Of a stretch of DNA of 64,000 nucleotides, positions 20,924 to 55,800 are shown piece by piece. Position 1 is the first letter of the stretch. Each line of letters begins with the position of its first letter. The stretch comes from Cladopsammia gracilis (lineage: Eukaryota; Cnidaria; Anthozoa; Scleractinia; Dendrophylliidae), in the NCBI GenBank assembly GCA_022457155.1, contig JAJGOT010000339.1, positions 869,501 through 933,500 on the forward strand, given 5' to 3'. The notes beneath the pieces are model-generated. The model was not told where the DNA came from. It did no database searches and was given only the letters and a program-made list of their open reading frames with translations. The translations under genes were made by a program, and so were the position numbers.

Positions 20924-21003
<80 letters not shown>

Positions 21004-28818: not shown

Positions 28819-31800
28819 CCGTAGAACTTGTGAGGGGTCTCGCAAACAATGCAAATCCTTAACCAACGTAAAATGCTTGCTGGAGGATCACTAAAGCGAT
28901 CGTGGACACTTGAAATAACTTAAATAAAACCGAAAATGTGAGGGTCAAGAGTCCAACTCCAATGTAGCTTTGCTGGTTTATTCGCTCAACGTTTCGACCA
29001 TAACGGTCTTCATCAGGAGCATCTGAGGTATATACTAACTGTTACAACATTCGAAATTTAAAAAGCTTAACGGAAAGAACACACGTGTCATGCTGACGTA
29101 ATAATCAGATATGGAGCTATAAAACTAAACTAAACTAAGCCAAACAATTTATTACGTAAATTTAACCAGGCTATTAATAGTAGGCTTGAATTTAGAAATC
29201 CAATAGCTTTCTCTTGCTCTTCTAATGTCTTGATTAGGATTTCTAACTTTTTCAATGACGGTTAATTTTAAATGTTTAACCCCACAGTTTTTAAAGTGTC
29301 TGACAGTGGGAATGTTCTTATGACCTGCGTTTATGTCGCTGCGATGTTGGTTTGTACGGCGATGAACGGGGTTTTTTGTTTCCCCTATATACTGATCGTC
29401 GCATTTTGTGCATTGAATCAAGTATATAACGTTGCTTGTTTGACAGGTGGTGTGTTGCGTAAGAGTGAAGGTTTCCCCTGTAGTTGTGCTTTTAACTGTT
29501 TCTGTGAATCTACCATATGTTTTGCAACATGCACATCTATTGTCTACTTTACAAGGCCAAAATCCTGGATTAGTATGTTCGGCGGATGTATGTTGCTTGT
29601 GTTTATGTGAAAAGTGTATCCTAAGGTTTCTGTTGGTTTGAAAGGAGCGGCCACATATTCTGCATGAGGTTTCTGATGTGTTTGGCGTGTCACTGCTAAT
29701 GGTGGAATGGCTTGCTTGTTCACTAGGGTCGCATGGTGGTAATCTTTTGTTCGTTAGCATCTCTGACAGGTTTCTTCCTCTACGGTAGGCAACGAGGGGG
29801 CGGTCCTTAAAGATGATTTTGCATTTAGATGAGGTGTGTAGTATTTGCTGGTGTTGGTTGAGAATATTATGCAGGTTCGGCATTGCTGGATTGTAGGTTA
29901 CTATAAGGGGTACACGGTTAGTGACAGGATTCTGCTTGGTTCTTAGAGCCTCTTCTCTAGTTGTTCTTCTCGCTCTCATAATGCACTCCTTGATGAGTTT
30001 GTTTTTGTAACCCCGATCAAGAAGTACATTGTGTAGTTCTCGGGCTGTCTTCTCAAAGAAATTGTTGTTAGAACATATGCGGCGTAGTCTCAGTGCCAAG
30101 CTGTAGGGGATGGACGTTTTAGTGTGACGTGGATGGCAACTGGTCCAGTTTAGATATTGATGAGTGTCAGTAGGCTTGGTGTATAGGTCAGTGCTAATCT
30201 TGCCGTTGTTGTTGATTACTTGGACGTCAAGAAATGGGATGCTTGTGGTTGATGAGGTTTGTTCAAATTTTATATGTGGATCAAAAGTGTTACATTGGTT
30301 AAGGAAATGTGTTAGTTTTTCCTCACCATGTGTCCATATGAAAAATATATCATCAATGAATCTGAACCAGAGTAAAGGGTGGTTAGCGCTTTGTTTCAGC
30401 AAGTGGTCTTCAAGACGACCCATGTAAAGGTTGGCATAACTTGGTGCCATCTTGGTTCCCATTGCTGTTCCTGTTTGCTGGATGAAATGCTTGCCTTGGA
30501 ATGTGAGGTTGTTGCAGGTGAGAACTAAAGTGATAAACTGTAAGATTGTTTCTCTTTTGTCGTCTGTGAAGTTATTTTGGCGCATGAAGTAATCGCAAGC
30601 TTCTATACCACCATCATGTGGGATGTTAGTGTATAGGGATTTGACATCCCAAGTTACTAATAGTGTTCCTGTAGGTAGTGTATGAGTGGTGTTTAATTCG
30701 ATGAGTTTGTTAAGAAAGTCGTTGCTGTCTTTAAGATGGGAGGGCAGATTCTCGACAAGCGGTTGGAGCTGGTCATCAACCCATTTAGAGATGTTAGCTG
30801 TGGCAGAATTGATGGTGTTGCAGATCGGTCTAGCTGGCGGTGGGCGTTGCGGTTTGTGGATTTTAGGAACAAAGTAAATATTGCCAGGTCGAGCGTTTTC
30901 CATTATTAAGTAATCCGCCGTATCGTTGTTGATTACCCCTTTCGAATGGGCCTCTTGTACAGCTTGTGATACTCTAATAGCGAAATCAGATGTTGGGTCG
31001 GCGGGTATGTGAAGGTACACTTTCTTGCCATTTTCGTCAGTGCCGTTAAGTTGTTTGTACGCTTCAGTTAGATAATCCTTCCTATTTTGCACAACCACTG
31101 CTGCTCCTTTGTCAGCTTGGAAAATGGCGATGGTTTTGTCACGCTTGAGTGTTTTGATAGCTTCACGTTCCAGCCTGGTGATGTTAGAGCGCTGCTTGTT
31201 GTTAGGTGTTTGCTGTAAGATGGCACGTTCCACTGCATTAATGTAACAGTCTAGGGTTTGATCTCTGCCAGGGCTTGGGGTCCATTTTGATGTTTTTCTG
31301 TATGTAGGGCTGTCATTCTCTTTTGTTGTTGTTTCGCCGTCATTCCAAAAGTATTCTTTCAGGCGCATACGACGGCCCCATCGTTTAATATCGGTTATAA
31401 GTTCAGTTTTATTCACACTATTTGGGGTAGGCACAAACTTAAGACCTTTACTTAGTATACTGATTTCGGGTTCTGATAATACACGGTCTGAGAGGTTAAT
31501 TACAGTTTTAAAGTTATTATTGGCGCGTGGTGTTGTGTTACGTCTGCCACGATGGTAATGTCTGCGGTGTTTTCGTTTGGAGGCGTGAGCTGCATTGACA
31601 GGTTTGGTATGAGCTGATGCGATTACTGAGGTATTTAAACTTGTATTCATGCTGTCACGAATTACAGCGGAGGTCGCATGCACAGTGTTGTTCATTTGAG
31701 GAGAGGTTGGTGTTGGATGCCTGTTGCTAGGACTGGAGGAGTTTTGCCTTCTGTTAGGTTTATGATGTCTGTGTACGCGTGTGGACGATTGCCTAAGATT

Positions 31801-34800
31801 GGGGAGTGGGTTTTGGGATTTCTGGTGATCGCGTGAGAGACTTGTGGACTTTGGTTGAGGTGAGTTTACCGCGGTTTCATAATCATTCCATATAGTCGTA
31901 GGGGACAACGGAGGTGTTGTTTCATCAGCATTGTGTTCTTGAAAGCCAAGGTGTTTGTCAAGTTTCTGCTGTTTCGTGTGAAACAGGCGGTCCCGGGTAT
32001 TTTCATTTTGGATTTCTAGCCAGTGTTTAATTTCTTCGAGTTGTAGGAATGACAGATTATTACTAAGAATAGATTGTTGATTTGCAATCTGTTTTCTCAA
32101 TGTCACGCATTTAGTTTCATGTGATTCAATCAGAAGGTCTAGCAATCGGTTTGAAGATTCCTTTAAAACATCAGTCCATTTATGTAGAATGTTTGAGTTA
32201 CCGACCTGTGGTTCTAATCGTATTTTTAGGCCCGGTGGAGTAATATTGTGTTTTTTGTACAACGAGAGAAAGTGTTGATGTAGTTCGCTCGAAATTAACT
32301 TGTGGTGTAACTTTCGGAGTTGCCAAATAGTTTTGGTACAGTAGGTGGAAATCCCTTCTGGAAAATTAGTCGTAGGGCCAGGGTTCAGTTCTATGTCACC
32401 GCTAGCTATTAGGAGAACGAGTAGGATAGAACCGTAGTGATTCCGGGTGGTGTTGATGTGAAGAAAGGGACGCACGCTGATGGATCGACACTGCGATTTA
32501 CCACGGTATAATGTAGAACGAAACCAGGAAAAAATCAGATCCTTGTTGTTAAATTCAAAGGGCTTGTTCAAAGTAAAGTCGCCGTCAATCCTTTCTTTAG
32601 AGAAAGACGTCAGAATAAAAATAAAGGAGGTAAATACAGAAATTCTTGACAGGAGCATGTTGAACATGGTATAGAAGCTTGCGATTACTTCATGCGCCAA
32701 AATAACTTCACAGACGACAAAAGAGAAACAATCTTACAGTTTATCACTTTAGTTCTCACCTGCAACAACCTCACATTCCAAGGCAAGCATTTCATCCAGC
32801 AAACAGGAACAGCAATGGGAACCAAGATGGCACCAAGTTATGCCAACCTTTACATGGGTCGTCTTGAAGACCACTTGCTGAAACAAAGCGCTAACCACCC
32901 TTTACTCTGGTTCAGATTCATTGATGATATATTTTTCATATGGACACATGGTGAGGAAAAACTAACACATTTCCTTAACCAATGTAACACTTTTGATCCA
33001 CATATAAAATTTGAACAAACCTCATCAACCACAAGCATCCCATTTCTTGACGTCCAAGTAATCAACAACAACGGCAAGATTAGCACTGACCTATACACCA
33101 AGCCTACTGACACTCATCAATATCTAAACTGGACCAGTTGCCATCCACGTCACACTAAAACGTCCATCCCCTACAGCTTGGCACTGAGACTACGCCGCAT
33201 ATGTTCTAACAACAATTTCTTTGAGAAGACAGCCCGAGAACTACACAATGTACTTCTTGATCGGGGTTACAAAAACAAACTCATCAAGGAGTGCATTATG
33301 AGAGCGAGAAGAACAACTAGAGAAGAGGCTCTAAGAACCAAGCAGAATCCTGTCACTAACCGTGTACCCCTTATAGTAACCTACAATCCAGCAATGCCGA
33401 ACCTGCATAATATTCTCAACCAACACCAGCAAATACTACACACCTCATCTAAATGCAAAATCATCTTTAAGGACCGCCCCCTCGTTGCCTACCGTAGAGG
33501 AAGAAACCTGTCAGAGATGCTAACGAACAAAAGATTACCACCATGCGACCCTAGTGAACAAGCAAGCCATTCCACCATTAGCAGTGACACGCCAAACACA
33601 TCAGAAACCTCATGCAGAATATGTGGCCGCTCCTTTCAAACCAACAAAAACCTTAGGATACACTTTTCACATAAACACAAGCAACATACATCCGCCGAAC
33701 ATACTAATCCAGGATTTTGGCCTTGTAAAGTAGACAATAGATGTGCATGTTGCAAAACATATGGTAGATTCACAGAAACAGTTAAAAGCACAACTACAGG
33801 GGAAACCTTCACTCTTACGCAACACACCACCTGTCAAACAAGCAACGTTATATACTTGATTCAATGCACAAAATGCGACGATCAGTATATAGGGGAAACA
33901 AAAAACCCCGTTCATCGCCGTACAAACCAACATCGCAGCGACATAAACGCAGGTCATAAGAACATTCCCACTGTCAGACACTTTAAAAACTGTGGGGTTA
34001 AACATTTAAAATTAACCGTCATTGAAAAAGTTAGAAATCCTAATCAAGACATTAGAAGAGCAAGAGAAAGCTATTGGATTTCTAAATTCAAGCCTACTAT
34101 TAATAGCCTGGTTAAATTTACGTAATAAATTGTTTGGCTTAGTTTAGTTTAGTTTTATAGCTCCATATCTGATTATTACGTCAGCATGACACGTGTGTTC
34201 TTTCCGTTAAGCTTTTTAAATTTCGAATGTTGTAACAGTTAGTATATACCTCAGATGCTCCTGATGAAGACCGTTATGGTCGAAACGTTGAGCGAATAAA
34301 CCAGCAAAGCTACATTGGAGTTGGACTCTTGACCCTCACATTTTCGGTTTTATATATATATATATATTTATATATATATACTAGTTAAAAAGACCGAAAG
34401 TAGGTGGTAAAAGAGACTTCTGAGACACCCTCAAATTCCCCTGAATTTCACACAAATATTTCAAACTCAACAAATCTGACAAATTCAACAATTTCTGTCA
34501 GTTTCCACTTAACTCACAAAATTGTCAAATCTGCTCAAACTCATCAGAATTGCGTGGTATCTGTTGATTTGGACTGATGAAAGATAATGTATTATTTGTT
34601 GAAATCTGCAGGAAATATTTGTGTGAAATTCAGGGGAATTTGAGGGTGTCTCAGAAGTCTCTTTTACCACCTACTGACGCTAAATTCAGCACAAGACAAA
34701 ATCTTGAAATTGGCCAATTTCGAGATTTCTCCGCTGAATTTCCGCAGAGGAAAATTCTTTTCAAATCTCAAAAAACTTCTCTCCCGGCAAGAAAATGTCT

Positions 34801-37800
34801 GATTCTGAAGAAGAAGAAATCGATTTCACGCCTGAAATTATTCGAGAAACCCACACAACATGGCAATCTCACAAAAATCCCAGGCTGGAACATTTCAAAA
34901 ATATCATCCGCAAAAATCAGGGGAAAAATCAAATTCCACTCAAAGATCTCGAATTTTATCAAGAACAAATTCTCTCCCAAATTCCCCGTGACGAAATCAC
35001 AAGAAAAAAAGTCAGGGATTTCGTCAAAGTTTCTAAGTGGAAAAAAGTCAATGGCAACGACCACACAATTTTTAATCACATAACAGGCCACGACGGGGAT
35101 GATTATGAACACCTGGAAAAATTCCTCATCGACGACTTTAAATATTTTTCACTTGCATATAATGACCTTCATCCCAGCAGAAACAAGTTTCTCAATTGTC
35201 ATCAAGTTCTTTTTGCTTTGTTGAAGAAGAACGGTTTTAATCCAAATGAAGATGATTTCAAACTGCTCAAACTTCCATCCAGACGGGCGGAACAAGAAAA
35301 AATAATCCAAACAATCTTCAAAAAATGTCATTGGAAATAAAATGGATCCATTTGAAAAAATAATTTACACTGAAGCCGAGCGAAGCGAAGCGAGCGAAGC
35401 CAGTGACCATGAAGATTGTTCCACATGTTCAGAGGAAGAAATAAGAAGCGACGATGAAACTCCGACAACATCGGATGATGAATTTATTGTCTCTGATTCA
35501 GAGATGGCGGAAGTTGAGGAAGAGGAGTGGGAAGAAGATCAAATTGAAAAACTTTTTGAATCTTTTGCCAATCTCCAGGAGGAACACAAGATTCTCAAAA
35601 AGGAACTCCAAAAGCAAAGCGGTCTTCTCTGGGAAATCCGCCGGGAAATGAACGAAAGCCAAGTGAAACGAAAGCGCCGTGAAGCGAAGTGAAGCGGTGT
35701 TTTGAAATAAGCGACTTTGTGAATATTAATGTTTAACATTCATATTCTGACATTGCCCAGCTGCCCGGTTATTGACATATGGCGGCCAATCAAAATCTCA
35801 ATTGTGTCTAACGCGTTAGACAGTTTTTCGGGGAATCAATTTTATGGCTAACGCGTTAGAAAGTTTTTCGGGGAATAAATTGGAATAATTTTGTCTAACG
35901 CGTTAGAAAGTTTTTCGGGGAATAAATTGGAATAATTTTGTCTAACGCGTTAGACAGTTTTTATAATTTTGTCTAACGCGTTAGACAGTTTTTCGGGGAA
36001 TAAATGGAATTTCCCCAGATTTTTTTTCAGCGGAATATTTTTTTTTAGTCAAAAAATATTTCCCCAGATTTCAGCGGAATATTTTTTCCAAAATTTTTTC
36101 AGCGGAATATTTTTTTCCGAATTTTTTCAGCGGAATATTTTTTTCCGAATTTTTTCAGCGGAATATTTTTTTCCGAATTTTTTCAGCGGAATATTTTTTT
36201 CCGAATTTTTTCAGCGGAATATTTTTTTTCCGAATTTTTTCAGCGGAATATTTTTTGTGTCTAACGCGTTAGACAGTTTTTAGGGGGGAGAAATGAAAAT
36301 TTTGTCTAACGCGTTAGACACCAAGTTTTTCCACATCACTCAGTGGAACCCAAGAATTAAATTTGTCAGGGTAACTTTTCCATTTTACAAGCGCGAGTTT
36401 TCGCTTATTATCGCGGCGAATAACTTTTTCAATTCGAAACACATCTTGCGTTGTCTTTTGAAGTTCTGCCTCGTAAAATGATCCAGTGATTGATTCTCCC
36501 AACAGATCAACTAATTTATACGTCGGAGGGTTTGTGTTTAAAACCTCATCGATAACAAATATCTCCTCTGTCCAGTTCGGGGTGAAACCTTTGTCAAATA
36601 TCTTTCGTTTAAACTTTGAAATTCTCACCCTGTCGCCAACCCTGAATTTTGCCGGGTTGTGTTTAGCATAAATTAAATCTCCGTATAAATTAGCGAAAAC
36701 CTTTTTCTCATTTTCCTGCTTGCTCGCCTCTGCTGGGCTCATGGCAATGCTGGAATGAAAACGGTGGTTATATTCATCCGCTAATTTGCCAAGTTTGTCC
36801 CAGTATATTGTATTGTTGTTAACAGAAAACATTTTAAAGAGTTTTTCCTTCATTGTCTTGTTCCAGCGCTCAACAACAGATGACTTTTCTTGATTTTCCG
36901 TTGTATACAATTTTACCCCATTCTCGCTCAGGAGGGCCTTCATTATTCCATTGAAAAATTCAGACCCTTTGTCAGTCCAGAGCATTTTCGGTTTTCGCCC
37001 CTTGAATATATCTCGGAAAGCATCAGCCACTGTTTGACCTCGCTTGTCTTTCAGGGGACGAATCCAACCGAATTTTGAGAAAACATCGATCACCATCAGG
37101 AGATATCTGATTCCCTTGTTCCACCTCGAAAATTTCCCCATCTCGACCAGATCAGCCGCCCAGATGTTGTCAATCCCATACGCAATGACTCGCCTCTTTG
37201 GAAAGCGCTGCCTGATTGGCCGGTGAAGTTCGTTTGCCAGATTTTTAGCCCACCGACCTTCACTCAAAATCTTTTCCCGTTTTTTGGGGCACCGAGGCCC
37301 AGTTTCTGTTTTGCTTGAATTGTGTTTCGCGCCAAAGCATGCCCCCACTGTCTTTCTTTCCAGGGAATGGCATCCAAAGCGGCAACCATTTTCCTGTCTG
37401 CTTTGTTTTTGCATTTGCGCGGATCCGCTTCGGCTCCGCCTCGGCTCGCTTCGCTCGCTTTCTTCGCGCAGACTGAATAATCAACATCGTGCTGCATAGC
37501 AACTGCGTCTGTTTTTCCTGTGGGCTGCTGCATAATTTCGAGAATCTTTCCCTTTTCATCAAATCTGACTTGCTTATCCAATGGGTTATAAGGGCCGGTA
37601 TAATTATGCCCTGGGAGAGTAAAACCTTTCTTTGGTCTTGGCAGCTTCCCAATCAGGGAATGAACATCTAAAGCACCCCCATCCAAATCTGCTCGATCTG
37701 TCTTATATTTTCTGTTTGGTCGTATCGCCGTACTCAGTTGATTGAGCATATCCGCAGAGGTTTTGGCAAGAAATGGTTTCATCTTGTCCAACGCAAAATC

Positions 37801-40800
37801 CAATGCTTTTTTCTGAGTGTTTTTGTTTCGCAGCAGTTCGCTTGCTCCATAACGACCCATTTCAACTGTTTTTTTCCCGAGCCAGGGAAGAGCATGAGCC
37901 ACGCCAGTCAGCGCAAGTTCACCAATGCCCCCGCCACGCGGGGGCCGACTCAGTTTCCCGAACTTTTCACAAATCTTGTTTTCTTGATTCCGCAGGAAGC
38001 GCAATGGCAAAACCACATCTTTCTTCCATTTTTTGCGGTCATATATCCAGATGGCTCAACACATTCAGTTTGTTTTTTTTCCTTCACGCAATATGACTTC
38101 ATTTTTCAATCGAAATATTCTTTTATGAATCTTTCATTAAACCTGGTATCAGTCAGACTGAGAGGCTGGAGAATATCATAGAAATCTTTTCCCTGCGACC
38201 ATTGATGGAGGAAGAAGAGGCAATAATACCCGCAAAGAACGCTGTTGATGTTTTGATACTGACTGTTGTTCCAAATCACCGGTTTGGAACTTTTGAATTC
38301 CTGGGGAAATCCCATCCCAAAAGAGTCGAAATACCACGTGAATTTTTTCCCCGGAGCGCAGCACACCCAGTGAGTTCCTGCATTTTCAAGCGAATCAAGA
38401 TTGATGATGCAGGGGCTGTGTTCTCGGGGCCTTGCTTCATCCCTGGCGAAAATCCCTTTGAAATTGGGAATTTTCAGAAAATCAATCCACTGGAGAAGAT
38501 CAAGGTTGCTCAGGGGTTTGTTCACGAATTTGGGTTTCACAATATTGCCCCGAGAACTGGGATATTGTTGAATGGACTTTTCGATCCCAGCAGAAGTCCC
38601 GTTCCTTTTTTGGATTTTTTTCCCATCCCTTTTTTCCAGCTGCCTACAAATGGAGGAGGTGGATTCAACGCGTGATATAGGGAAGGAGCTCCCAATCTTG
38701 GCGCACCTTTGCCTTTGTGGCGACCAACTCTAGGAGCGCCTTTTCCTTTGGGGCGACCAACTCTAGGAGCGCCTTTCCCAAACAAATTTTTCACCATGTC
38801 CAGCGCCAGTGGAATTCCGATGGAAGCCAGAATTGTTCCCAATGCCCCACCAGATTGTTTTGCTGATGGTTTTATCGTCAGTTGTCCTCCTGAATTCAGG
38901 GCAGTCAAAATATCCTGTTTCTGCTTATTTGTCAACAAATGTTTATTGGCAATCAGTTTTTGAATTTTATCTTGGGGAATGAGAAATCCGCCCGTTTGCC
39001 CGCTCCCGCTTATCTTTTTCACGACTTGACTCGCTCCTTCACTCGCCAAACCAGCCAATGCTGACAGTCCAAGTGTCTTTGCCAGGGTGGGTGCCAGGGA
39101 ACGAGCCAGGGGAACAATAGCAGAGAAAAGACTTCCACCCTGCCGCATCACTTTTCGGATTTGCGTTTTCGATATCTTGATTTCAACTCCCTTTCCCAAA
39201 GCCACAGCTTTGCCGATTCGTCTTATTTGATTTGCCGTGAGCCACAGTTCATCATTTCCGCTTGTTTGTTTGCCATCCAATCTCAGGGTGATAGGGCTTT
39301 TTGTTCGGAATGCTCTTCCAAGCTTGCTTTTTTGCCCTTCCGACAGATTTACTTTATATGGGTGATATGTTGTCATTTAAATGACAAGATATGTTTTTCA
39401 CTCCCTACACGATAACCAGCTCATTTCCAATCTTATCGATTTTCACTTCTTCGTCATAGAGAACAATCGCATGAACATTGAAGTTGTCAGTTGCATCTGC
39501 GCTCAATCGATACCTGAATATCAGCTGCTTGGGATCTCTTGTTGGTTTTTCCGTTTGATAAGTCAGATTGAAATAGATCAACGGGAAAAGAGAATTGTAA
39601 TTGGCCAGATTCAACTGTGTTCCAGTGTTGTAGTCATTTTTCCTCATTGCATAAGCCATGACATCCTGGAAAATCCTCACTTTGCTTTCACTGTCGTACT
39701 CTGTTTCCGGGTAGAAAACTCCGTTTCCATATTCCAGCCGGCAGTTCGACAAGGATGAGTTTGCATCTGCCGCATTCAGCTTGAAAGTGTCCATCAGATA
39801 GGGATTGTCTTCTATAGGGATGGCAGCGGTTCTTTTCAGCCAGACAAAAATATGCCTCACATTGTCGATGCTCGCTGAGATCTGGAAAAATCCTGATGAT
39901 GTTGCGGGAGCAGATTGCTGATACATTTCCCTCAGATATTTCCATTGCGATTCTTTCAGGAATGAGCTGACAAATTTGTCATACAGAGAATCTTTGGGAG
40001 TCAGTCTTGGCACCCAAAGCAACAATCGATTCACAACAACTCTTCCAGGATTAGCAGCAACGGCGTGTGCCATATGAATGAGTTCCTCATCATCATTCAG
40101 TGTTATCTCGAATTGAAGCTGCATAGGCACAAGCATCTTATCTTCCAACTCTTCGAAAAAGGAAAAACGATTCAGGGGAATGATCGTATTAGCGTTTTGA
40201 AGATTTCGAGTAATCAGTCGCCGAGCTTCAAATCCTGCATTCGTATTAGCGGTTGTTGCATCAGTATCCAAATACCAGAAACTGTTCTTGGCGACTGATC
40301 TGCTGAAGTCGTCGGAGTATTCCAGCAAATTCTTTGTGAAACAGACTTTATGTAGATTATCAGTATCATAAATAATCTTTCCTGCAGATTTTATCGTCAG
40401 GTGTTTAATCAGGGAATGAGCCCCATTGATTACGGTTATTCTGTCAGCGTCATATGCCGCTCCATCTGCTAATTTCTGGAGTTGAAATTGCACCTCGAAA
40501 TAAGCGTTATACCAATCATAGAATGCGGATCGGTCATTAATCGTGAATTTATAACCACTTTTTTGTTGATGTTGATCATTAGCTGGAGCTCGGATTGTGT
40601 CATCCAGCTGGAAGCGCACTAATTCATTTCTTTGAAGATATTCATTCGATCGAAAAGCCATTTTATATTATTTTTTTCTTTTTCGGATGCCTTGCCCAGA
40701 GATCAACCTGTTCAATATGACATCAGAACTTTCTCCGGAGGTTGACGCAGGGGGTGATTGTGACTTTGTTTTGCCTGGTGGCTTCCCCTTTCTCATATTT

Positions 40801-43800
40801 CCCAGCTTTTTCATGATCAAATCACCAGATTTTTCAACTGCTTTTTTGCCGAGTTTATCCCCAGCGTGAGAAATTCCTGATTCCAATGCTTTTTTCGCAA
40901 TGGGTTTCGCGAATTTATTGAAGACGACTGATGCGACCTTCCTCATTGGTTTGAAAATATTGTCCACAATGACACCTGTTCCTTTATGCCGGAAGACAAA
41001 CCGCCCCAGCTGGGGGTGGAAAAAACGAGAGAATTCATAACTTTTCATTTTATTTGTTTTTTCAAGATAAGCGAGAACGCTGTATCAGCTCCATTCAAAT
41101 CAACAACCCGCCTTTTGCCGTCAGTGATATAAATCCGAATGGAGCTTATTCTGTTTTTATTCACAGGGCTGAACATCACTCTCATGGGTTCCAAAGTGAA
41201 ACTATAAGAGGCCTGCAGAACAGATGTGGAAAAGGAGAAGATGATATCACTCTCTTCCCCATCCACAAGCGAATCACTTGTGAGATCGCAATGAACGTTC
41301 AACATATCAGTATCTTGACTGAGGTTTGGAACTCTGGGGCCAATGTTGACTTTGTCTTTCAGAATCTTTTTATCGAAACCAATGAGATCGCCAAAGTTGG
41401 ATTTCTCGAGATCAAGTTGCCAGTTTTCTTCCAGCGTGATTGTTACTCTGAAAGTTGTGGGAGAGAAAGCAAGATTGATTGGGAATTTTTCATTCTTTCC
41501 TGGGGTGGATCCTACGAGGGGGCCTGTTGCTTTTCGAATTGCCTCATTCAAAGTGGAATAATCCCAAACCCCAGCGGGAAAGGTGATATCGGAAAATGTT
41601 TTCCCACCGTCAGAGCTGAATCTGATCAGCTGATTTTTCAATGCTGCATTGATGTTATACCACGTAAAACTCATATTGATAATTCTGTTCAACCCAACAA
41701 CATATTGGGAATTTGGATCCAAAGCAATGGGCTGATTGAATTTTGTTGTGAAATTTTCTGGTTTGTTTCCCCCAGTCTTGACGGAAAAAGATGACAGGAC
41801 AATTTCTCTTTCGATTTCCATTTTAGGGCTTGAAATACTTTCTGAAAAGCTTCTCATGCTGGGAACGATTGATGACTCCCTCTTTCAGGAGAAGATCGAG
41901 AATGCCAACTCCAGTATTTCTGATTCCCTGATTCGTATTCCCAGCACGAATGGAGCCAACAATGACCTCAAGTTTCTGGAGGAGATCTGCGGGGTTGGAG
42001 AAAAAACGGATGGATCCGCCCCTTCTACCGACACCCGATCCTTTAAATGACTTGAGTTTCCCTCTATAATATTTCATGTAGTCATTCACTACTTTTCTGT
42101 CAGCCATTATTGGCTTTACTGCCGCAGCCAATGCCTCTGCCGTTATTTTACCATTTTTGAATTTGTTGTTATGATAGCTGATGCGGCTGTTCAGTTGGTC
42201 TCTTTTTTTTAAAGCCGGCTTTATAATGCTGATTTGAATGAAATTTTTTTTCTTTTCTACCGGAACCTTTGGCTCAGCTAAGACTTTCTCCGTTGTGTCA
42301 TAATTTACTAAACCCATGTTATCTAACATGTTATTAACTGCGTCTTCTTGAGCGCCTTCCTCGTCTCCCGCCGCTTCCGCTTCTTCCTCTTCTTCTTCCA
42401 TAGCATAATCAGGAACGCTCTCTTCATATTCCAATGGTTCACCTTCTAACTCTGCCAATACTTCTTCATATGTTGGCGGTCTTTCTGAATGTGGCTTAGC
42501 TGCTTGCGGTGCAACAGCTGCCTCATCCGCATCAAATAAGCCTTCAACATCCATCTCTTCAAATGGGTCGACTTCGGGGAGATAATCAATTTCTGTTGGT
42601 TTGGCCCCACGTTTCAAGACCTTCGGCTTTTTCCGGGGAAGTGGACCCAAATTCGACGCAATCACCTCATCCAATTTCGCTGTGACTGGATTGAACATTT
42701 TTTCAAACCCAATTTGACTTGTCTCTTCACCCAACTTTTTCTGGGTGATGACATCATGAACAAAGTTGATTTTTTTACCCAAAGCAGATTTGCTTTTAGC
42801 AATTTCTTGCCATTTCAATAAACTCATTTTATTAAGAATCATAATCTCAGAATCTCAGAATCTCAGAATCTCAGAATCTCAGAATCTCAGAATCTCAGAA
42901 TCTCAGAATCTCAGAATCTCAGAATCTCAGAATCTCAGAATCTCAGAATCTCAGAATCTCAGAATCTCATTCTCATAATCTTACAAGTTGCCACATATCA
43001 AGAAGAACGTTATCTTCTCTTTTAAAAATGAAAATCCCAAATTATGATTGTCAGGATCCAATCACGAATTTCCGACAACGTTACCCTTTCATGCCGGATC
43101 GAACTTTCAGGATGTTGATCTGTGGCCCTTCAGGATCGGGGAAAACAAATGTTCTCCTGGATATGATTTTCCGCCTGCTCTTCTACGATAAAATTTATCT
43201 CTATGCGAAAAATCTTGACCAAACCAAATATCAGCATCTGCTGAAAACATTTCGCCCAATCAGCAAAGAAGCTGGGTATGACGTTGTGGAAGTATCCCCG
43301 GATGAAATCATCCCAGTTTCTGAATTGTCAGGGGAGAATCAAAAGCTGGTTGTTTTCGATGATTTTGTTTCCGAAAAAAACCAAAAGCCATTGATTGATT
43401 ATTTCATTCAGGGCAGGCACAAAAAATGTTCTGTGATTTATCTTTCGCAAAGTTATTTCGGAACACCAAAAGATATCCGCCTGAATTGCTCGCATTTTTG
43501 CATCTTCGAATTCCCTAGCAACAAAGAAGTCTCAGCGATCTGCAGGGAGAACAATGTCAGCAAAGAAGATTATCGGAAAGCAACAGCGCAGCCCTTCTCT
43601 TTCCTGTATGTGGATAAGCCGAGGAAATTCATTGCCAAAAACTTTGATGAAAGCATTTAAAATGAGTTATTCAAATGGACTGCTTTCTGAAACAAGCAAC
43701 TTCCAGGGAGGAAAAGGACGAGATGGAAAAGATGGATTGCCAGGAGTTGGTTTCAAGCTGACGCCGGCAGGGGACTTCGACCTGCAAAGGAAACGCCTGA

Positions 43801-46800
43801 CAAATGTCGCTGAAGGAACGGGGAATTCGGATGCAATTACCAAACACCAAGTTGACACGCTTGCAACGCAATTGCGGGCAGATTCTCTCCAGGTGGATGG
43901 TTCCTCGCACATGACTGGGGATCTTGATCTCAGGGGACAAAAACTCATCAACCCCGGGGAAATAGAAATGAATCGCAAATTGATCGTCAATCTGGACACT
44001 GATGAAAACCAGGATTTGTCAGCGGTGAATATGATCACTCTGAAAAAATTCCACCCTGATGCTCCTGAACCAACTCATGAAGTCACGAAGGATATTGATT
44101 TGAAAGAACTTTTCAACGTGAAAAACTCAAAACAGCAAACATGGCATGATTTGGGAGCCGCATACAACAACCTGGTTTCTTATAATGACACCAAAAATAT
44201 CTTTCTCAGCCGCAAAGAGACGTTTCCAATGGAGACGGCTTTGGATATGGGAAATCACACCATTTTTAACGTGAAAGATCCCGAAGTTGCCGATCAGGGC
44301 GCAAATAGGCGATATGTGGATGCCCAATCCGCGAAAAAGCTTTCGTTGGAAGGTGGAACAATGACCGGAAACCTGGATATGAACTCGCAACAAATCAACA
44401 ATATTGCAACGCCAACTCTGAAGCGGCAACCCACGCCAAAATCTTATGTGGATAACCAGATAGGAGGTGTGGTAGCCCACACGATGGAATTAGAAGAAAA
44501 ACTTAAAGAATATGTCAATGAATCGCATATCACGTCAACCTCTCACCCAAAGGACGCATTCCGCTATCTGATGGAAAATGTGGATGAATCCAGCTCTGAA
44601 CATCATATGACAGTGACTGGGATAAGTGATTTTCCAGATTCGCCGCATCATTTCAACAAGAAGGCTTATGACTTGGAAATCACAAAAGATCTTTTAAATG
44701 AATACTCTGGGAGACTTGGATTCAATATGTTCAAACTCCCAGAGGGAGAATACACGATTTGCATTGAATTCTTCCCCGCGGCAATGGATGGCGTGAGCGT
44801 CAACGTTGTGAGCACAAGTCTGAATATAAATCAGCAATCAACTAAGAAGTTTTCGGGGTATTCCAGATCCATCATCCACATGCACAAATGGAGGATTTCC
44901 CCACCTGAATTCATTTTCCTGGATTTGAAATGGAGAGGAACTGCCGAGTCAGCCGAAAAAGGAAACGCAAAGCTGATCATATATGGAGTTGCTGGTTCTC
45001 AACCTGATGTTGAAAGCAGCGTCTTCGATTCCCCTTTCGTTTTTGAGGGCGGGAAGATGGTCATGGAGGCTGACTTGGATTTGAATGGCCACAAATTGCT
45101 CAATTCAAATTTGAAGAACAATTTCATGCTGATTGGAAGATTTAGAAAATCATCTGGAGACGCCATAAATATACTTTTTGATAATTTTTTCAATGATATA
45201 GTCATCGCCATCCGATGCAAATTAATTAAAGCATATGTCCAAATTTTATCGAAAACATCTTCTTTTCCACAACTGACTTTATATCTCCCAGATAAAGAAT
45301 CACAAAGTGGAACGAGGGTTAGCAGAGATAATAGAATTCAATTATTTTCTTTTTCAAATGTTGTTTATAAGGCAGGAGAATTATTTTCAGCAAGAATACA
45401 TGATCGATCATTGAATGTTGGGACTGCCCAAGTCACATTTCTTTTTGAAATTATCTAGAAAATGAGAGCGAGAAAAACGAGCCGAGCGAAACCCACGCGA
45501 AAACAAAGCATATTTGCTTTCAATCACATCCACCCCGCAATTCGGGAAGAAGAACTGGAAGAGATCAAAAAACTCTTCCGATTTTATCACAAAAGATTTT
45601 GGTGTCTGAAACGAGCGCATGGCCGATTCAAGAAAATGAATCTGCTCATGAATTTGACCTCTTCCGGCCTGGTTGCAATCGGGACGATTGCTGGGGCAGC
45701 AACAATGAACCCAATCGTTTTGGGAGTGATTTCAGGAGCGGGATTAGTTTTGAAAACCGCGAATGAAATGAAGAATCTGAAAAGCAAAATTGAGATGGCG
45801 AAATTCGCTTTCACCACCTATGAAAAAACATTGAGTGATTTGCGCTTCGCTTTGCGGGGAGGAAATTTTGATCGAGCTGAATTTTTGTTTTCAATGGAAG
45901 CGATTGATGGGATTGTGATTGATTTGGGGTTGGATTTGGAAAAGTTTGAAGCTGAATGGGAGAAAAAATTTGAGTGAGCGAAGCGAGCGAGCGAAGCGAG
46001 AGGGTTGAATTTTCATTTCTGGGAAATGAAAAATCAGGGGAAAATCACTTGAATTTCTTGATTTTGTTGAATATGTCAACGTGAAATGTTCTTTCATTTT
46101 TCCTCAAAGATGGTAAAAATCCAATTCGTTTCAAGGGGTGAAAATCTTTTTTTCCCAGCTTCGCCTCCAGATCTGCTAGGGCTTGATCTCGGTTCACCTG
46201 AAAAGCCACCCTGCAGATGATGGAAATGATTTTGATCAGGCAAATGGTTTCACCATTGTATTGGCATTCTTTTTTCTTCCAGTCCAATTCGAGATCTTCA
46301 TCCGCGAATAATTTATTCGCAATCATTCGACAAAGTTCATCAAAAGATGAAACAACGATCTTGAATTTTTCAAACCATTCCTCATCCATTGGGAGTGAAG
46401 AAAAATCGATTTCGCAAGAAAGTTGTGAATCTGTGGCTTTTGGTTCGCCGAGGAAGAATTTTTTCTTGTCCGACCTCCGGGTGATGGTTGAGTTGTTCTT
46501 TTTCAATGCATTGACGATTGCGCAATTTGAGATTCCATATTCTTTTGCCGCGGAATTGATGGAAGTGAAATTTTTGGTTTTTTTCCCATCGGAGATTGAA
46601 AAATGCGTTGCTGATTTCGACATTTTTTATGTGGAGAAAAAAAGGAAATAAAAAATTAAAATCCCATTTTATCTGGATAAAGCTCAATTTTAACCAATCA
46701 GTTCTCCAATTTAGTTAACTGAGTTTTAGCTGATTTGGGGAGAAACTTTTCTTGAATTTTCAATTCAAGCTGATTTTCAGCGAAAAATTTTCATCCCCGG

Positions 46801-49800
46801 AGAGATTTTCATCTCAAAATCCGTTTTCAGGGAGATTTTTCATCCCAAATCCATTTTTGTGGGCGTTTTTTTCGTTCTGAAATCTATTTTTTGGAGAGAT
46901 TTTTCATTCCCCCGGACATCCCTTCATATATTAATCTGGAAAAAAAAATTTGGGAAAAAAATTTTCCTCCAAATAATATGGGAGGAATGCTCCGGAGGAA
47001 ATTTCATTTCAAAATCAGTTTCCGGAGGATTTCATTTTCATTTTCCAGAGGGATTTCAATTCAAATTCTGGGGGGTTTTCATTTTCCGGAGGCATTTTCA
47101 TTTTTCTGGAAGGCATTTTCTGCTCCAGAAAAATCCATTTTTCCGGAGGCATTTTCTGCTCCAGAAAAACTCATTTTTTTCCGGAGGCATTTTCATTTTC
47201 ATTTTCCGGAGGGATTTCATTTTCATTTTCCGGAGGGATTTCAATTCAAATTCTGGAGGGGTTTTCATTTTCCGGAGGCATTTTCATTTTCATTTTCATT
47301 TTCCGGAGGGATTTCATTTTCATTTTCCGGAGGGATTCCAAAATTCAACAGTTTTTATGCTGCGAAAAGGGGAAATAACACATTTAAAATCCCATTTTAT
47401 CTGGATAAAGCTCAATTTTATCCAATCATTTCTCCAATTTAGTTAACTGAGTTTTAGCTGACATGGGCAGAAAAATTTCTTGGCTTTGAATTTTCCGCTG
47501 ATTTTCAGCGGAAGATTTTCAAACCCCGGAGAGATTTTCAATCCCCGGAGGATTTTCATCCCAAAATCCGTTTTTTGGGGGTGATTTTTCATCACAAAAT
47601 CCGTTTGGGGAGATTTTTCATCCCCCGGACATCCCTTCATTTATAAATTTGGAAAAAAAAAATTTGAAAAAATTTTCCTCCAAATAATATGGGAGGAATG
47701 CTCCGGAGGAAATTTCATTCCAAAATCAATTGGATATTTTCAAATTCAAATTCATTTCCCCGGAGTGGATTTTCAAATTCAAATTCAAATTCATTTTTCC
47801 GGAATTCATTTTCAAATTCAAATTTCAAATTCAAAATTCAAATTCGTTTTTTCTGGAGCAGATATTTTTTCCAGAATTCAAAATTCCAAATTCAAAAATT
47901 CGTTTTTTCTGGAGCAGATATTTTTTCCAGAAAAATCCATTTTTTCTGGAATAGATATCTGCTCCAGAAAAATCCATTTTTTCCGGAGGGGTTTTGAAAT
48001 TCAAAATGCATTTTCCGGAGGGGATTCATTTTCATTTTCCGGAGTGGAAAATTTCCCCTGAGGAAAAAAATGATTGGAAAGAAAATGCCTTCAAATTCAA
48101 ATGCGAAAAGAAAAAAATTGAGTGAAAGTGACGACGAAATTGATTCCATTGACCTGCTGATGGAAAGCTATGTGAATTTGGAAAAGTGGGTTGAAGAGAT
48201 TGCCGCAGATATGAAAAAACAAACTGAATTGTTTGAGAAAATGATGACTGAATCAACTCATTGCAAATTCTGCGAATCTGCGGTGATTTGAATTGATTGG
48301 AGTGATTTCGGCTGATTTAAAGTTGGATTCCGCAAATCAAATTCTGGGGATTTCAGAATTCAAAAAATTTTCCGGAGCAGAATCAAATTCATTTTCCGGA
48401 GCAAATACGTGAAAATCTGCCCAAAATGAACTGAAAAAATCTGAGGCAAAATCAGACCTACCACACGTGGAAAAATCAAAAAATCAGGAAAAAAGATTCT
48501 GCCCAAATTCACTGAAAAATTCACAAATATTTTCCAGAATTGAATTCTGGAAAAGATTTTCTCCCTGATCTCAACGAGATCCAACTTCAATCTTCATCCT
48601 CATTCTTGTCCTCAAACTCATCGAATTCCGAGGCAGCTTCCACCTTTTCCTCCACCAAAACTTCGTCCACGATGCATGTGATGGCTTTCAGATTTCCGCA
48701 GAAAAGGTGTTTGATTGAAAACACAACTTGCCCCCGGAGAGGAACGCCAATGAGTTCTTTTTGCCTCAGGATTGGTTTTTTCTTCCCATCGTCGCACAAT
48801 TCCCAAAATCTGCAGGAGAAATCCGTGTGCTTGAGTTTGGAGGGATAAATCTTGGCATAAATCTTTTCCTGCTCGGATTTGTCGATTTTCACGAGAGTGA
48901 AATCTCCCTCCTGAAATCGAGCAAAAGACGGGGAAATCTCTTGGATTGCCTGCTTCTTTTTCATCGCAGCAGAGTTGAGATGTTTTTCCAAATCTTTGAA
49001 AAATTCGATGTTTTCTTCCGGAAGAGTGATTCCCAGAGAAAACGAGTCACCTTGATGAGCGAAAATCTTGAATTTGGTTTGGAGTTTCACTTTGAACCGT
49101 GAGTCCATGTGGAGGCAGGGGAGAAGGCAGAAATTAATTTTTCCAGAAGATTTTTTCACGGGGTCTCCGAGTGAGCAGTCGGGGATAGATATTTTCTCGG
49201 GATTCATTTTTTGGGAGGAGATAAAAAATAAATTAAATCGTGAAAAATCCATTTTTCCATGAACTTGCGATCCTCTTCCAGTCGGACTGGGAGAAAACCA
49301 GTGGCCATGTCAACCGCTTTTTGAAAGTTTCTTTCTGCGTCACACGCTTTTTCCCAGATCAAATCTTCTTGAATTTTTTCAGCCTCTTTCTGAGGAGTGG
49401 ATTTGTTTTCACCTGACATTTTTTCTCCAATGGAGAAAAAATTCAAAACGCATTTTGCAAATCCACAAGGATGTCGTTCATCTCAGCCTGAGCCAGGTCA
49501 TGATGTTTATAAAGCCCTTTTTTAGGATGCGCGTGCATCAACTTTCCCAATGTAGCTTTCTTTTTCATGAGATAGATGAATTCTTGCAATCTGGGAGAAA
49601 CCCAAGTGACTTCGTGCGATTTTTCCCCTGAATCCAGAAAATGAGTTTTTTTCCTGCAGAGTTGATTGAAAAAAACTGTGCGTGATAACCCAAATCGTTC
49701 CCGAATTTCCTCCGCGGTGAAAAAATCTTCCCCGTCAATCTGGATGAATGGTGAGTCTTCTTCCTCCTGAATCCAGAACACTTTTTGATCGGTTCTTCTG

Positions 49801-52800
49801 GTATATTTAGTGTTGCCTGATTTGAGAACTCGCAAAATCGTTTTGGAGGGAAGACCAGTTTTTTCTGATGCTTCTTTGAATGTGAAAAAAATTTGTTTTT
49901 CTTTTCCTTCTTCCTGAATTGAAAACTTCATTTTAAATGGGGAAAAAAGGTTTTTTTCTCCATTAAAAATGTCTTTAGCTGCATGGCAATCATTTGCGCG
50001 AACGACAAATTTGCGAGGATGGTCGCGATTGAAAAAAGATGAACTGGTGAAGTTTTTAGTTTAAAATCTTTGGCAAGGAGGGGGAAAAAATCAGCCAAAA
50101 ACTCGAAAAAGACGAGCCAACCTAGATGACAAAAATCCAGAAATTGATGTGCCTTTTTTGATTCCGGAAAGAAGAATTGTTCCCCCCAGAGTCATTCCCA
50201 GAGCGATTGAAGAAAATGTAGATACTGTTATCGATTGGACAAATTGGTTGGAAAGTGTGGATGACGCGGATGTTCGGAGAAGAGCCAATCCCGCAGTGGA
50301 AAGATTGAAAGAACAAGTCAGAAGATTGTGGGAACAAAGGTTGGTCGTGGAAGAAGGAAAATCCGCTTTGCGAGGATTCGCGAGACAATTTTTTATTCAA
50401 GGAGATGATTCCATTTCTCCCCAAGATTTTTTCCGGAAAGCAAGATGGTTGGTTCTCAGGCTCCTGCGAGAAAATCCACAAACAAGAGTGAAATGCGTTT
50501 TGAATGTGGAAATGTCCCAAACAAACTTGGCTTCTGGGGAGGAAGTGATTGAAAATCCATTTTTCCATTCCCAGCAGAAAAGGAATTTAGGGAACAACCC
50601 AGAGATTCTGGATGAAATGGAAAAAGAAATGATTGAAAATCTGGAAAACTTCAATCGCAGGGGATCCAATTGGGTTTTTGAAAGAGTTTTGCGTTTGGAA
50701 ATTCATTTTGTGCGCTGGAACCCCCTGCGAGGATCTGGATGGCTGCCACTGCCTGCTGATTTGGCAAACAAGAAAGCCGTGATCAACATGCAAAATGAAG
50801 ACGAGATGTGTTTCAAATGGTGCTTGGGCAGAGCCGCAAATATGGTCAAAGTTCATCCGGAAAGAATCACACCGACTTTGCGTGAACAAACAGAAGAGAT
50901 GAATTGGGATGGTTGCGAATTTCCCATGGCCGTGGAAAAAATCAAGTTTTTTGAGGCCAAAAATCCTGACATTTCAGTGAACGTTTTTGGCTGGAATGGA
51001 TCTGTTTTTCCCCTGAGAATCACCAAGGAAGAAAGGGGACTTCATGTGGATTTGATTCTGCTGACAGAAGAATTCAAAACGCACTTCTGTCTGGTGAAAA
51101 ATTTCTCCCGCTTGGCAAGCTCTCAAGTTTCTCGAAATGGACATGAAAGATTTTTCTGTAAAAGATGCCTCAATTCATTTCCCAGATTGGAAAGTCTGGA
51201 GAAACACAAAACCATTTGCGGAGATTTTGAAGCCGCGAGAATTGAACTTCCAGGAGGAACTTGTTCCTTCAAAAACTTCCCAAAAATGATGCATCTGCCT
51301 GTTGTTGGATATGCAGATTTTGAGTCAATTTTGAAACCGCTGGGGGGAACTCAAAAAACCCACGAGCATATTCCCTGCGGATTTGCGTTTCATCTCGTTT
51401 CCCCGTTTTTGCAAATGAAGCCTGTGTTGAAAAGAGCTGCAAATGAAAATGAAGAACTTCCCAAAGAGTTTATTCGAGAATTGATTTCCCGAGTGAGAGA
51501 AGCTCACTTGAATTTGCCGAAAAAGGAAATGATTCCCCTGACCAACCAAGAATGGAAATCATTTCGAGAAGCGGAAGTGTGCTGGCTGTGTCGAGAAGAA
51601 TTTGGAGAAAAAAGTCTGTCCAAGGTGAGGGATCACTGCCACTTTTCAGGAAAATTCAGGGGAGCAGCGCATCAATCTTGCAACCTGAAGTTTCAAAGGT
51701 CAAAATTCACCCCTGTGTTTTTTCACAATCTACAAAATTATGACGCCCATCTTTTTGTGCGAGCTTTGGGGACAATGGATGAAGTTTTGAGCGTGACATG
51801 CATTCCCAACAACGAGGAGAAATATATTTCCTTTTCCCTGAAATTCGAGTTGAAAAAAGAATGGAATGAGGAGAAAGGGAAAAATTTTTCAGTGAAACAT
51901 GAAATTCGATTTCTGGATTCCTTCAAATTCACGCTGGCAGGATTGGACTCGCTGGCAAAAAATCTCCCCAAAGAAGAATTGAAAGAAATCACCAGATTTT
52001 TTGGTGAGAAAAGCGATTTGATGCGGCGAAAAGGAGTTTATCCCTATGAATTCATGACAGGATTTGACAAATTCGAGCGACAATTACCGAAAAAAACCGC
52101 GTTTTTTTCCAGATTGAATCAGGAAAAAGTCTCAGATAAAGATTTTGCCCATGCCCAGCGAGTTTGGGAAGAATTTGAATTGGAAAATATGGGCGAGTTT
52201 CACGATCTTTATTTGAAAACGGATGTGCTGTTACTTGCAGATGTCATGGAAAGTTTCAGAAAACTTTGCGAAGAAAACTATGAACTGGATCCAGCGCACT
52301 ATTTTACCACCCCTGGGTTGGCTTGGGATGCAATGCTGAAAATGACCGGAGTGAAGTTGGAACTGCTGAAGGAGGTGGAACAGTTGTTGATATTTGAAAA
52401 AGGAGTCAGGGGAGGAAACGCAAATGCATTCAAACGATTTGCGAAAGCAAACAATCAATATATGAAAAATTTCAATCCAAATGAACCATCTCGTTTCCTG
52501 GTTTATTTGGACGCCAACAATCTTTATGGATGGGCCATGTCACAGCCTCTTCCAGTTGGGAAATTCCAGTGGATGAATGAGGAAGATTTGGAAAACTGGG
52601 AAAAGTTTGTGAAAGAAGAAGGTCAAGGTTGCATTCTGGAAGTTGATCTCGTTTATCCCCCAGAATTGCATGATGATCACAATGATTTTCCCCTGGCTCC
52701 GGAAAAACTAGCGCTGGGTGGGATTGAAAAACTCACGCAAAATCTGGAGGATAAAGAAGGCATGGTTTTACATGGACGCAATCTGGCGTTTTATCTTTCC

Positions 52801-55800
52801 CAGGGAATGAAGTTGAAAAAGATCAGGCGAGGAATAAAATTTGAAGAAGCAGCATTTATGAAATGTTATATTGACAAAAACACTGCCCTGAGATCCAAGG
52901 GAAAAACGAAGTTTGAAAAAGATTTCTTCAAACTCATGAACAACTCAGTCTTTGGGAAAACCATAGAAAACCTGAGAAATCGAGTCACGATTGAACTGGT
53001 GAAAGATGCGGAAAGAGCAGAAAAGCTGGTGAGCAAATGCAACTTCGCCGATGTGAAAATTTTCGATGAATTTCTGATTGCAGTCAAGATGAGGAAAACG
53101 CGAGTGGTCATGTCAAAACCCATCTTTGTTGGGATGTCAATCTTGGATTTGTCCAAACTTTTGATGTATGATTTTCACTATGAATATGTGAAGAAAAAGT
53201 GGGAAAATGTTTCTCTCCTGTATACCGACACAGATTCTTTGGTGCTGGAGATTGAAACGGAAGATTTTTTTGCGGACATTGCGGGGGATGTGGCAGAATG
53301 GTTTGACACAAATGATTTTTCCCCAAAGCATCCGGCAGTGTTGAATGGAATGCCAATCGTGCCAGGGAACAAGAAAAAGATTGGGTTGATGAAAGATGAA
53401 TGCGAGGGTGCCATTTTGACAGAATTTGTCGCCCTGAGACCAAAACTGTATTCTCTCCTGATTGAGGAGAATGCAGAAACCACGGAGGAACAAAAGGCAA
53501 AGGGAGTGAAAAAATGCATGATCAGGAAGAGTTTGAGACATGCAAACTTTGTGAAATGTTTGAGGACAAAACAAAAGCAACTCAGGAGGCAAAGTATCTT
53601 CCGCAGCAGAGGGCACCATTTGTTCACGGAAAACATGACCAAAATTGCGCTGAGTGCGGAAGATGACAAAAGAGTGATTTTGGGCAATGGAATTGATACG
53701 CTGGCTTTGGGGCATTGGAGACTGGGAGAAATATTCTCCCCAAATGAGCGTGAAATTTTGGAAAATGATTGATTTTTTCGTGTGGAAATTCAGCGGAGAA
53801 ATCTTGAAATTGGCCAATTTCAAGATTTTGTCTTGTGGTGAATTTAGCGTCAGTAGGTGGTAAAAGAGACTTCTGAGACACCCTCAAATTCCCCTGAATT
53901 TCACACAAATATTTCAAACTCAACAAATCTGACAAATTCAACAATTTCTGTCAGTTTCCACTTAACTCACAAAATTGTCAAATCTGCTCAAACTCATCAG
54001 AATTGCGTGGTATCTGTTGATTTGGACTGATGAAAGATAATGTATTATTTGTTGAAATCTGCAGGAAATATTTGTGTGAAATTCAGGGGAATTTGAGGGT
54101 GTCTCAGAAGTCTCTTTTACCACCTACTACCGAAAATGGACAACTTTTGGTATAAAAAATAAAAATTTAGTTTAAAAACGTTTCGGTCTCTCGACCTTCA
54201 TCAGTTATACAGACAAGTTCCACATGAGACTTAAATACGGTTACAACAATGACTTAATGTTAAACTACTGATAAATTACGTAACAAAAATAAAAGCAAAA
54301 ATTACAACAATAATACAATAATAGAAGTGATAACGAGACTAAACCAAAGGCAAATCACAATTGCCACAAATAATACTAATGAACTACAGTAACCTAACAA
54401 AAGGTATAATAACTAAGAAAAACAATCAAAAATAGAAAAAGTTATGCAATAGTCCCAACTTAATAAGTTTCCCATTCAGGGCTCTGAACAATCATACAGG
54501 CCAATGCCACAACAAAATCCCTGAGCAGGGTCCTTAAACAATGAGTAATAAATTCCACACTCAGAGCCTTTGAGTGACGAGGCCAGCACAAAAATAACAA
54601 ATTCCCGAACGAGGCCCTTGAACTTTAAGACAATTACAAAAGGCGATAAAATTTTTTTTTATGCTAAAAATTCACTATAAGAAAATTACAACCTAGTGAT
54701 GAAACCTCCCGGAATTTAATTGTAATGAATACGATTTTTTGAATGAAATTCTTGTCTTTTATTTAGCCCAAAAGGTGAAAGGGAAAATAGTTGCGCACTC
54801 CAATACGCTTCTTTCGTGACAAGTAATTTTTCTGTGTCTTGATTTGTGTTTGTATAAATTTGGTCTATGCATTGAAAAGTGAAATCTGTTAGAATGTGTG
54901 GCGTTTTGTTGAAGTGTATGGCGACCTCGCAGGTTTTCTTGTTTGTTTTCATCGTAGATTTGTGATTCCTAAATCTAACTTTAAATTCCGTAGTGGTAGA
55001 TCCAACATACTGGAGATTGCATTTCTTACAATGAACCAAATAAATCACATTATCGGAGTTGCACGAAGGTCTTTGTCGAATACTATACGTTTTGCCAGTT
55101 TGGGCGCTGAAAAAAGTTTTAGAACAAAACGCAACAAAACGCCACACATTCTAACAGATTTCACTTTTCAATGCATAGACTAAATTTATACAAACACAAA
55201 TCAAGACACAGAAAAATTACTTGTCACGAAAGAAGCGTATTGGAGTGCGCAACTATTTTCCCTTTCACCTTTTGGGCTAAATAAAAGACAAGAATTTCAT
55301 TCAAAAAATCGTATTCATTACAATTAAATTCCGGGAGGTTTCATCACTAGGTTGTGATTTTCTTATAGTGAATTTTTAGCATAAAAAAATTTTTTTATCG
55401 CCTTTTGTAATTGTCTTAAAGTTCAAGGGCCTCGTTCGGGAATTTGTTATTTTTGTGCTGGCCTCGTCACTCAAAGGCTCTGAGTGTGGAATTTATTACT
55501 CATTGTTTAAGGACCCTGCTCAGGGATTTTGTTGTGGCATTGGCCTGTATGAATGTTCAGAGCCCTGAATGGGAAACTTATTAAGTTGGGACTATTGCAT
55601 AACTTTTTCTATTTTTGATTGTTTTTCTTAGTTATTATACCTTTTGTTAGGTTACTGTAGTTCATTAGTATTATTTGTGGCAATTGTGATTTGCCTTTGA
55701 TTTAGTCTCGTTATCACTTCTATTATTGTATTATTGTTGTAATTTTTGCTTTTATTTTTGTTACGTAATTTATCAGTAGTTTAACATTAAGTCATTGTTG

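Follow-up and report, generated by a model that had tools for sequence, protein, structure and literature searches.

The question of how a mobile element comes to bear the same sequence, in the same direction, at both of its ends is raised by a Polinton in a 64,000-nucleotide stretch of the genome of the scleractinian Cladopsammia gracilis (contig JAJGOT010000339.1 of assembly GCA_022457155.1, positions 869,501 to 933,500), referred to here as the window. The element has the PolB, the rve integrase, the A32 ATPase and the 6-bp target site duplication (TSD) of a Polinton and is complete in outline (Table 1). Its outermost 277 bp are 100% identical between the two ends and lie in direct orientation, while the adjoining 70 bp form an inverted pair with differences at three positions. 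Each 277-bp unit consists of a 64-bp arm (A), a 149-nt loop and a second arm (A') that is perfectly complementary to the first. What is inverted between the ends is thus the outer 64 bp and the inner 70 bp, with A' between them, and the direct 149-nt loop interrupts the inversion. Folded as a DNA strand, the unit reaches -89.5 kcal/mol, against -27.0 +/- 3.7 in 200 shuffles (z = -17). This anatomy, including the three inner differences and the opposite orientation of the loops relative to the element, was described in the original prediction, made from the window alone, and is confirmed here; the TSD is an addition of the present analysis. The prediction also called the ends flip/flop, in the manner of parvovirus-like terminal hairpin transfer; that label is an interpretation, as a single copy cannot show flipping.

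The host assembly comprises 878 Mb in 1469 contigs. When it was searched for the first 31 arm bases with up to 3 mismatches, one strand gave 298 matches and the other 299, and the reversed control gave none. These numbers point to some 150 copies of the window family (alpha), probably well over a hundred. We fetched both ends of 53 two-ended copies, picked from the best DNA matches and the listed exact arm matches. In 51 of these, here called normal, one end carries the VLTF3-like gene and the other PolB, as in the window. In 50 of the 51 normal copies, the two loops were direct and always faced the same way relative to the element; the 51st (L049/L050) has lost its left loop, cut out at the tip of the stem. 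The constancy of loop orientation across copies excludes random flip/flop. Neither the flip/flop that had been claimed nor the plain terminal inverted repeat (TIR) that had been set against it was therefore found in other copies; the fixed direct repeat present throughout the normal copies, loopless L049 apart, calls for a different mechanism. What is left of the unit at L049 (G000:C304:920884) is a palindrome almost without a loop, each arm being about 47 bp long.

A script recognised TSDs in 49 of the 53 copies, all of them different. Among the remaining four, L079/L080 has GAACGG on both sides by eye, one stops at a contig end, and five bases are shared at the flanks of L022/L021 and L114/L115. 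Of 374 places with the loop core, the first 100 gave 40 neighbour pairs (9 of them new, the others overlapping the 53 fetched copies), 38 on the same strand and 2 on opposite strands, with 20 places unpaired. The two opposite-strand pairs are palindromic elements on contigs C50 and C408, to which we return below. No tandem copies sharing a unit and no three-unit runs were found among these 100 places, nor were solo units among 118 alpha units, 117 of which are flanked by the inner TIR on a single side, the last being the shortened L049. An apparent 31-kb pair on C1305 proved to be one element with a matching TSD. Two single ends, L072 (G000:C321) and L073 (G000:C346), have the same host flank and are probably one insertion assembled twice, on allelic or duplicated contigs.

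To compare the two units of a copy with those of other copies, we used 32 copies (the first 33 minus L049) and 5000 shuffles. The loops differed at 13 of 4768 positions within copies (0.3%) versus 5.9% between copies, a value as low as the former being reached in none of the 5000 shuffles. The first 16 bp of the inner TIR, which adjoin the unit, showed 19.3% difference inside copies and 21.6% across them, and 553 of the 5000 shuffles gave a within-copy value as low. The pair of units was identical in 24 of the 32 copies, and differed at no more than 2 positions in 46 of the full 53 (for two palindromes, in reverse-complement comparison); the numbers of differences in the remaining seven are 3, 5, 6, 8, 13, 25 and 146, the largest belonging to L049 and the next to a unit truncated by a contig end. 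An asymmetry between A and A' at arm position 19 is found at the left end of eight copies, and in six of these the right end has it in identical form. These data suggest that the units of both ends derive from one parental unit, and that the unit behaves as a direct terminal repeat resembling a long terminal repeat (LTR). The original prediction is thus borne out in its claim of a common source for the two hairpins, as in its anatomy and opposite loops, and is not supported in its flip/flop mechanism.

Three palindromic elements indicate what the loop orientation follows. Those on C50 and C408 have two PolB ends, their loops are inverted and their TSDs match. In the former (L081/L082, L119; G000:C50:523105-542662), the right part of the element is repeated inverted around a unique centre, the units being 0/277 and the inner parts 1/800 apart. 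In the latter (L037/L109, L120; G000:C408:4514402-4528735), about 450 bp of the right end are inverted, beyond which the sequence resumes near window position 41652, and the units are 2/277 apart. The third, on C1302 (L151/L152; G000:C1302:313695-330584), was the sole pair with inverted loops listed for a related family (gamma, see below). Two VLTF3 ends were predicted from the inverted loops before its sequence was inspected, and VLTF3 was indeed present at both ends; its units are 0/277 apart in reverse complement, its inner parts 5/729 apart, and its TSD is AGTGTA. Since all three have two like ends and inverted loops, loop orientation belongs to the end type, and no flipping is seen. Symmetric defective genomes of the adenovirus type are likewise palindromes with one end duplicated in inverted form (our literature search gave nothing pertinent on them), but those on C50 and C408 are integrated with TSDs. 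A chimera on C1300 (L137/L138, L158/L159; in the beta listing) has VLTF3 at the left, PolB at the right and a TSD. Its inner ends are unlike, the left of beta type and the right of another type (22/30 differences), and its units are 0/277 apart.

The stem-loop is not confined to the window family. We sampled the PolB-side ends of ten further elements (10 of 36 scored PolB matches) and found it in all ten, with arms of 49-64 bp that are 94-100% complementary and loops of 149-179 nt; a complete unit of 277-279 bp was present in nine, the innermost bases being lost in L125. By eye, the ends fall into alpha (L122, L123, L130), beta (L121, L124, L125, L127) and gamma (L126, L128, L129), the last ending in AGTAGT instead of the AGTAGG of the window element. 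The loop is homologous across the ten aligned units, and the arms diverge yet remain paired (94.5% of cells). Of 57 stem pairs, 19 have changed on both sides, 2 on one side and 27 are unvaried, while 9 depart by unpaired cells only, mostly in gamma, whose stem is shorter. None of 500 shuffles reached the observed pairing or the covariation score, and 8 of 500 had as many pairs with changes on both sides; the number of pair types shows no excess, with 480 of 500 shuffles as high. The small number of one-sided changes would suit one arm being copied from the other.

Relative to PolB, the beta loop is reversed, in 3/3 extracted units and in 5/5 elements judged by strand (three in common). All 18 same-contig pairs of the beta listing are nonetheless direct (36 of 40 scored matches; 4 unpaired), in a listing that takes in relatives down to 82% identity and in which most pairs were not checked against PolB. 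The ten pairs that were sequenced are all direct, with 0-5 differences, and nine have TSDs. As beta is reversed yet direct, both ends must have changed together. For gamma, the listing gave 12 direct same-contig pairs and the one palindrome, with 12 of 40 matches unpaired; the element on C1456, compared at both ends, has units 0/277 apart and a TSD. An apparent 42-kb gamma pair on C409 joins ends that belong to separate elements and is not counted.

We consider it reasonably likely that the unit is a direct terminal repeat, and that the ends are remade via a circle or head-to-tail junction with a single unit. Such an extrachromosomal junction, ...I' [A loop A'] I..., where I and I' are the inner TIRs, would present A facing right on the top strand and A' facing left on the bottom strand. 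Because the arms face oppositely, one signal (a terminal-protein start or a nick at AGTAG) could serve both strands at the edges of the unit. Both nascent strands would traverse the whole unit, so that each new linear end would get a complete copy, and the rve integrase would then insert the linear form with its 6-bp TSD. The oppositely facing arms of the direct unit would also supply the element with its inverted ends. Arm complementarity may be maintained if the arms are occasionally copied in hairpin or cruciform form, and both ends would flip together whenever the single unit, in rare cases, became inverted. Sequence that is shared in the direct sense points away from panhandle repair of linear DNA, which makes inverted copies, and towards a one-unit template; direct, co-inherited ends likewise point to a single-unit junction. 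Paired priming is one candidate for the step itself, as are nicking followed by fill-in and the cutting of a cruciform to leave hairpin ends. The last finds a lead in an endonuclease VII (EndoVII)-like His-Me motif upstream of the polymerase domain of the window PolB, which we take to be catalytic. The motif (CxxC...RDHCH...CN) is present in the window PolB and in the 5/5 homologues inspected (of 120 listed), and the PF02945 match (5.4e-5, 23.5 bits) falls just under the cut-off of 23.6.

Several observations weigh against the single-unit junction. Over the full 70 bp, the inner TIRs differ by 6.2% within and 7.1% between copies (111 of 5000 shuffles as low); this small within-copy excess of similarity shows that the two are not fully independent, and the tie between ends over this length would be at most weak. 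Unlike loop or arm variants are found in the copies with 8 and 5 unit differences, and mixing of unlike units therefore does occur. The position-19 asymmetry is present at one end only in two copies and, together with the unlike units, means that sharing is not absolute. No circle, concatemer or I'-unit-I junction was seen among the 118 alpha units; this is weak counter-evidence, because the integrase is not expected to fix such forms. Elements with a protein-primed PolB are generally held to replicate in linear form, with no circular stage. Lastly, frequent extrachromosomal gene conversion between the ends would yield the same pattern.

According to the latter explanation, replication would be of the ordinary linear, protein-primed kind, episomal recombination would homogenise the direct units, and a past inversion would have made the arrangement. 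Homology in direct register extends over exactly the 277-bp unit, so that a sharp boundary would be expected, and copies with unlike units exist. The conversion would, however, have to be near-complete, given the 46 of 53 alpha copies with no more than two differences, while the adjoining 70-bp inner TIR largely escapes it, and conversion alone leaves unexplained how beta came to be reversed at both ends with the direct arrangement retained; we find it distinctly improbable. Closed hairpin telomeres, formed when the junction unit is extruded into a cruciform and its base is cut by a resolvase such as the EndoVII-like domain of PolB, to leave hairpin ends that are later opened by copying, would again give two direct, identical ends from a single junction. 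The perfect 64-bp stem and its low folding energy, the pairing and covariation kept across three families, the PolB motif in every homologue inspected, the excision of the L049 loop at the stem tip and the reversal of loop orientation at both ends between families are all consistent with such telomeres. The counts of pair types and of both-side changes, reached by shuffles as given above, and the nine departing pairs are less so; moreover, integrated copies cannot display closed ends, the domain lies under the Pfam cut-off, and the comparison covered unit-bearing Polintons only, so that it provides no link between domain and unit. We regard closed hairpins as unlikely, though deserving of some weight.

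Terminal hairpin transfer, in which the ends fold back, prime, get nicked and invert the loop, accounts for the hairpin anatomy and for loops that are opposite relative to the element; the parvovirus terminus, too, is a palindrome with an asymmetric loop. The process needs both orientations at each end, whereas the normal copies bar one show a single orientation and the palindromic copies retain that proper to their end type. It also provides no link between the sequences of the two ends, which in the window family share one sequence, and a Rep/NS1-type nickase is absent from the 18 open reading frames (ORFs) scanned with Pfam (8 of the 25 listed ORFs lie outside the scan, and an undetected nickase is possible). 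It is thus very improbable here, and a version with strictly strand-specific resolution could still be proposed. As for an assembly error at the repeats, which the original prediction had named as something that would refute it, identical palindromic units can indeed confuse assembly, but numerous contigs show this arrangement, the 53 copies have 49 different TSDs, and three palindromic elements follow the end-type rule, leaving it a practically negligible chance.

We regard the balance as even for the broader proposal that, in a large lineage of Polintons, a single stem-loop unit at the junction of a circle or concatemer is the source from which both ends are regenerated, via cruciform cutting or paired starts. 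Such a cycle would lie halfway from LTR-like direct repeats to hairpin telomeres, in a group believed to rely on simple linear protein priming. Polintons are assigned a position close to the root of many eukaryotic DNA viruses and, to our knowledge, their replication has hardly been tested so far; a many-copy family whose ends record copying from one another makes the replication intermediate testable. Direct repeats that are identical within a copy and remade each round are known from T7-type termini and from LTRs. The window unit resembles these in its within-copy identity and differs in having inverted arms at its edges, with no reverse transcriptase domain in the 18 scanned ORFs. Among Polinton-like viruses (PLVs), direct terminal repeats of similar length to the window unit are described for Tyrannomonas PLV-56 and PLV-78 (median 266 bp; PMC12747079) and for PLV-RED1 (PMC4642659); in each case they are taken as a sign of a circular intermediate. 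The former study calls such repeats rare and ties them to tyrosine recombinases; PLV-56 and PLV-78 carry one together with a primase-helicase, linked to TSD-less integration, and also an rve-type integrase unrelated to the canonical one (PMC12747079). The window element, in contrast, has PolB, an rve integrase and a 6-bp TSD, with no tyrosine-recombinase domain in the 18 ORFs scanned with Pfam, and its repeat is itself a stem-loop.

In intact vertebrate Mavericks, the TIRs are given as inverted repeats of 46-1447 bp (PMC8097293). The end motifs (AG)3 and (AGT)2 are reported for vertebrate Mavericks in the same paper, and the AGTAGT of gamma and the AGTAGG of the window element may be set beside them. 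The window element shares with Polintons/Mavericks the gene set and TSD named above, but its outer 277 bp are repeated in direct orientation, can pair with themselves and are homogenised separately from the inner TIR. An inverted-repeat finder that starts at the outer edge runs into an unpaired loop 64 bp inwards. No direct repeat in the form of a stem-loop was described for a Polinton with PolB and rve integrase in the literature found, including passages of PMC12220804, PMC8547959, PMC12747079, PMC4642659, PMC8097293 and PMC8363768 (Repbase, supplements and subscription papers lay outside the search). That both ends appear to be remade from one copy at each multiplication points to a replication step not described for Polintons in the papers found.

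The features of the element are listed in Table 1. No match to major or minor capsid proteins was obtained in the 18 ORFs scanned with Pfam or in 7 scanned with NCBIfam, and window positions 34300-34800 had no match in Rfam. In a first look at the host genome, 5926 candidates were found with one PolB and 3789 with PF03175, of which only 36 and 76 were scored; Polinton-type polymerases seem to be very abundant. A PolB search of viral contigs, a collection from which records near the host genome may be left out, gave no relative.

Table 1. Coordinates of the Polinton and its features in the window
Feature	Position	Strand	Evidence or remark
TSD ACCGAA, left	34393..34398	.	matching 6-mer at 54129-54134
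Left 277-bp terminal unit A-loop-A'	34399..34675	+	identical, direct, to 53852-54128
Arm A, 64 bp, outermost end AGTAGG	34399..34462	+	100% complementary to 34612-34675
149-nt loop, core TCAAATCTGCTCAAACTCATCAGAATTG	34463..34611	+	core kept across three families compared, small changes in gamma
Arm A', reverse complement of A	34612..34675	+	arm comparison
Inner TIR I	34676..34745	+	inverted partner 53782-53851, 3 differences; hardly homogenised within copies
VLTF3-like gene, left-end marker	34795..35340	+	PF04947 E=1.7e-20
rve integrase with chromodomain	36314..37414	-	PF00665 4.5e-10, PF00385 2.1e-6
PLA2-like domain protein	37264..37860	-	PF08398 9.4e-9
Possible adenovirus-type C5 protease, stop-to-stop frame	38106..38729	-	PF00770 E=0.0084, weak, below cut-off
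A32-like packaging ATPase	43028..43660	+	PF04665 3.5e-14
PolB, right-end marker	50512..53772	+	PF03175 9.1e-26 (DNA_pol_B_2)
Inner TIR I', right end	53782..53851	-	inverted partner of 34676-34745
Right 277-bp terminal unit	53852..54128	+	direct copy of left unit
TSD ACCGAA, right	54129..54134	.	matches left 6-mer

Within the element, repeats at window positions 35798-36326 and 42839-42969 comprise copies around CTAACGCGTTAG and a 16-copy array of the 8-bp sequence TCAGAATC. Directly to its left, positions 29152-34125 hold two long stop-to-stop frames of 1193 and 491 codons on opposite strands, perhaps another mobile element. In host DNA at 20152-20999, a 232-bp sequence is perfectly repeated in tandem (3.4 copies), and a TA run follows it. 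Just outside the element, at 54544-55500, lie large inverted repeats with arms of 264 nt (98%) and 117 nt (97%).

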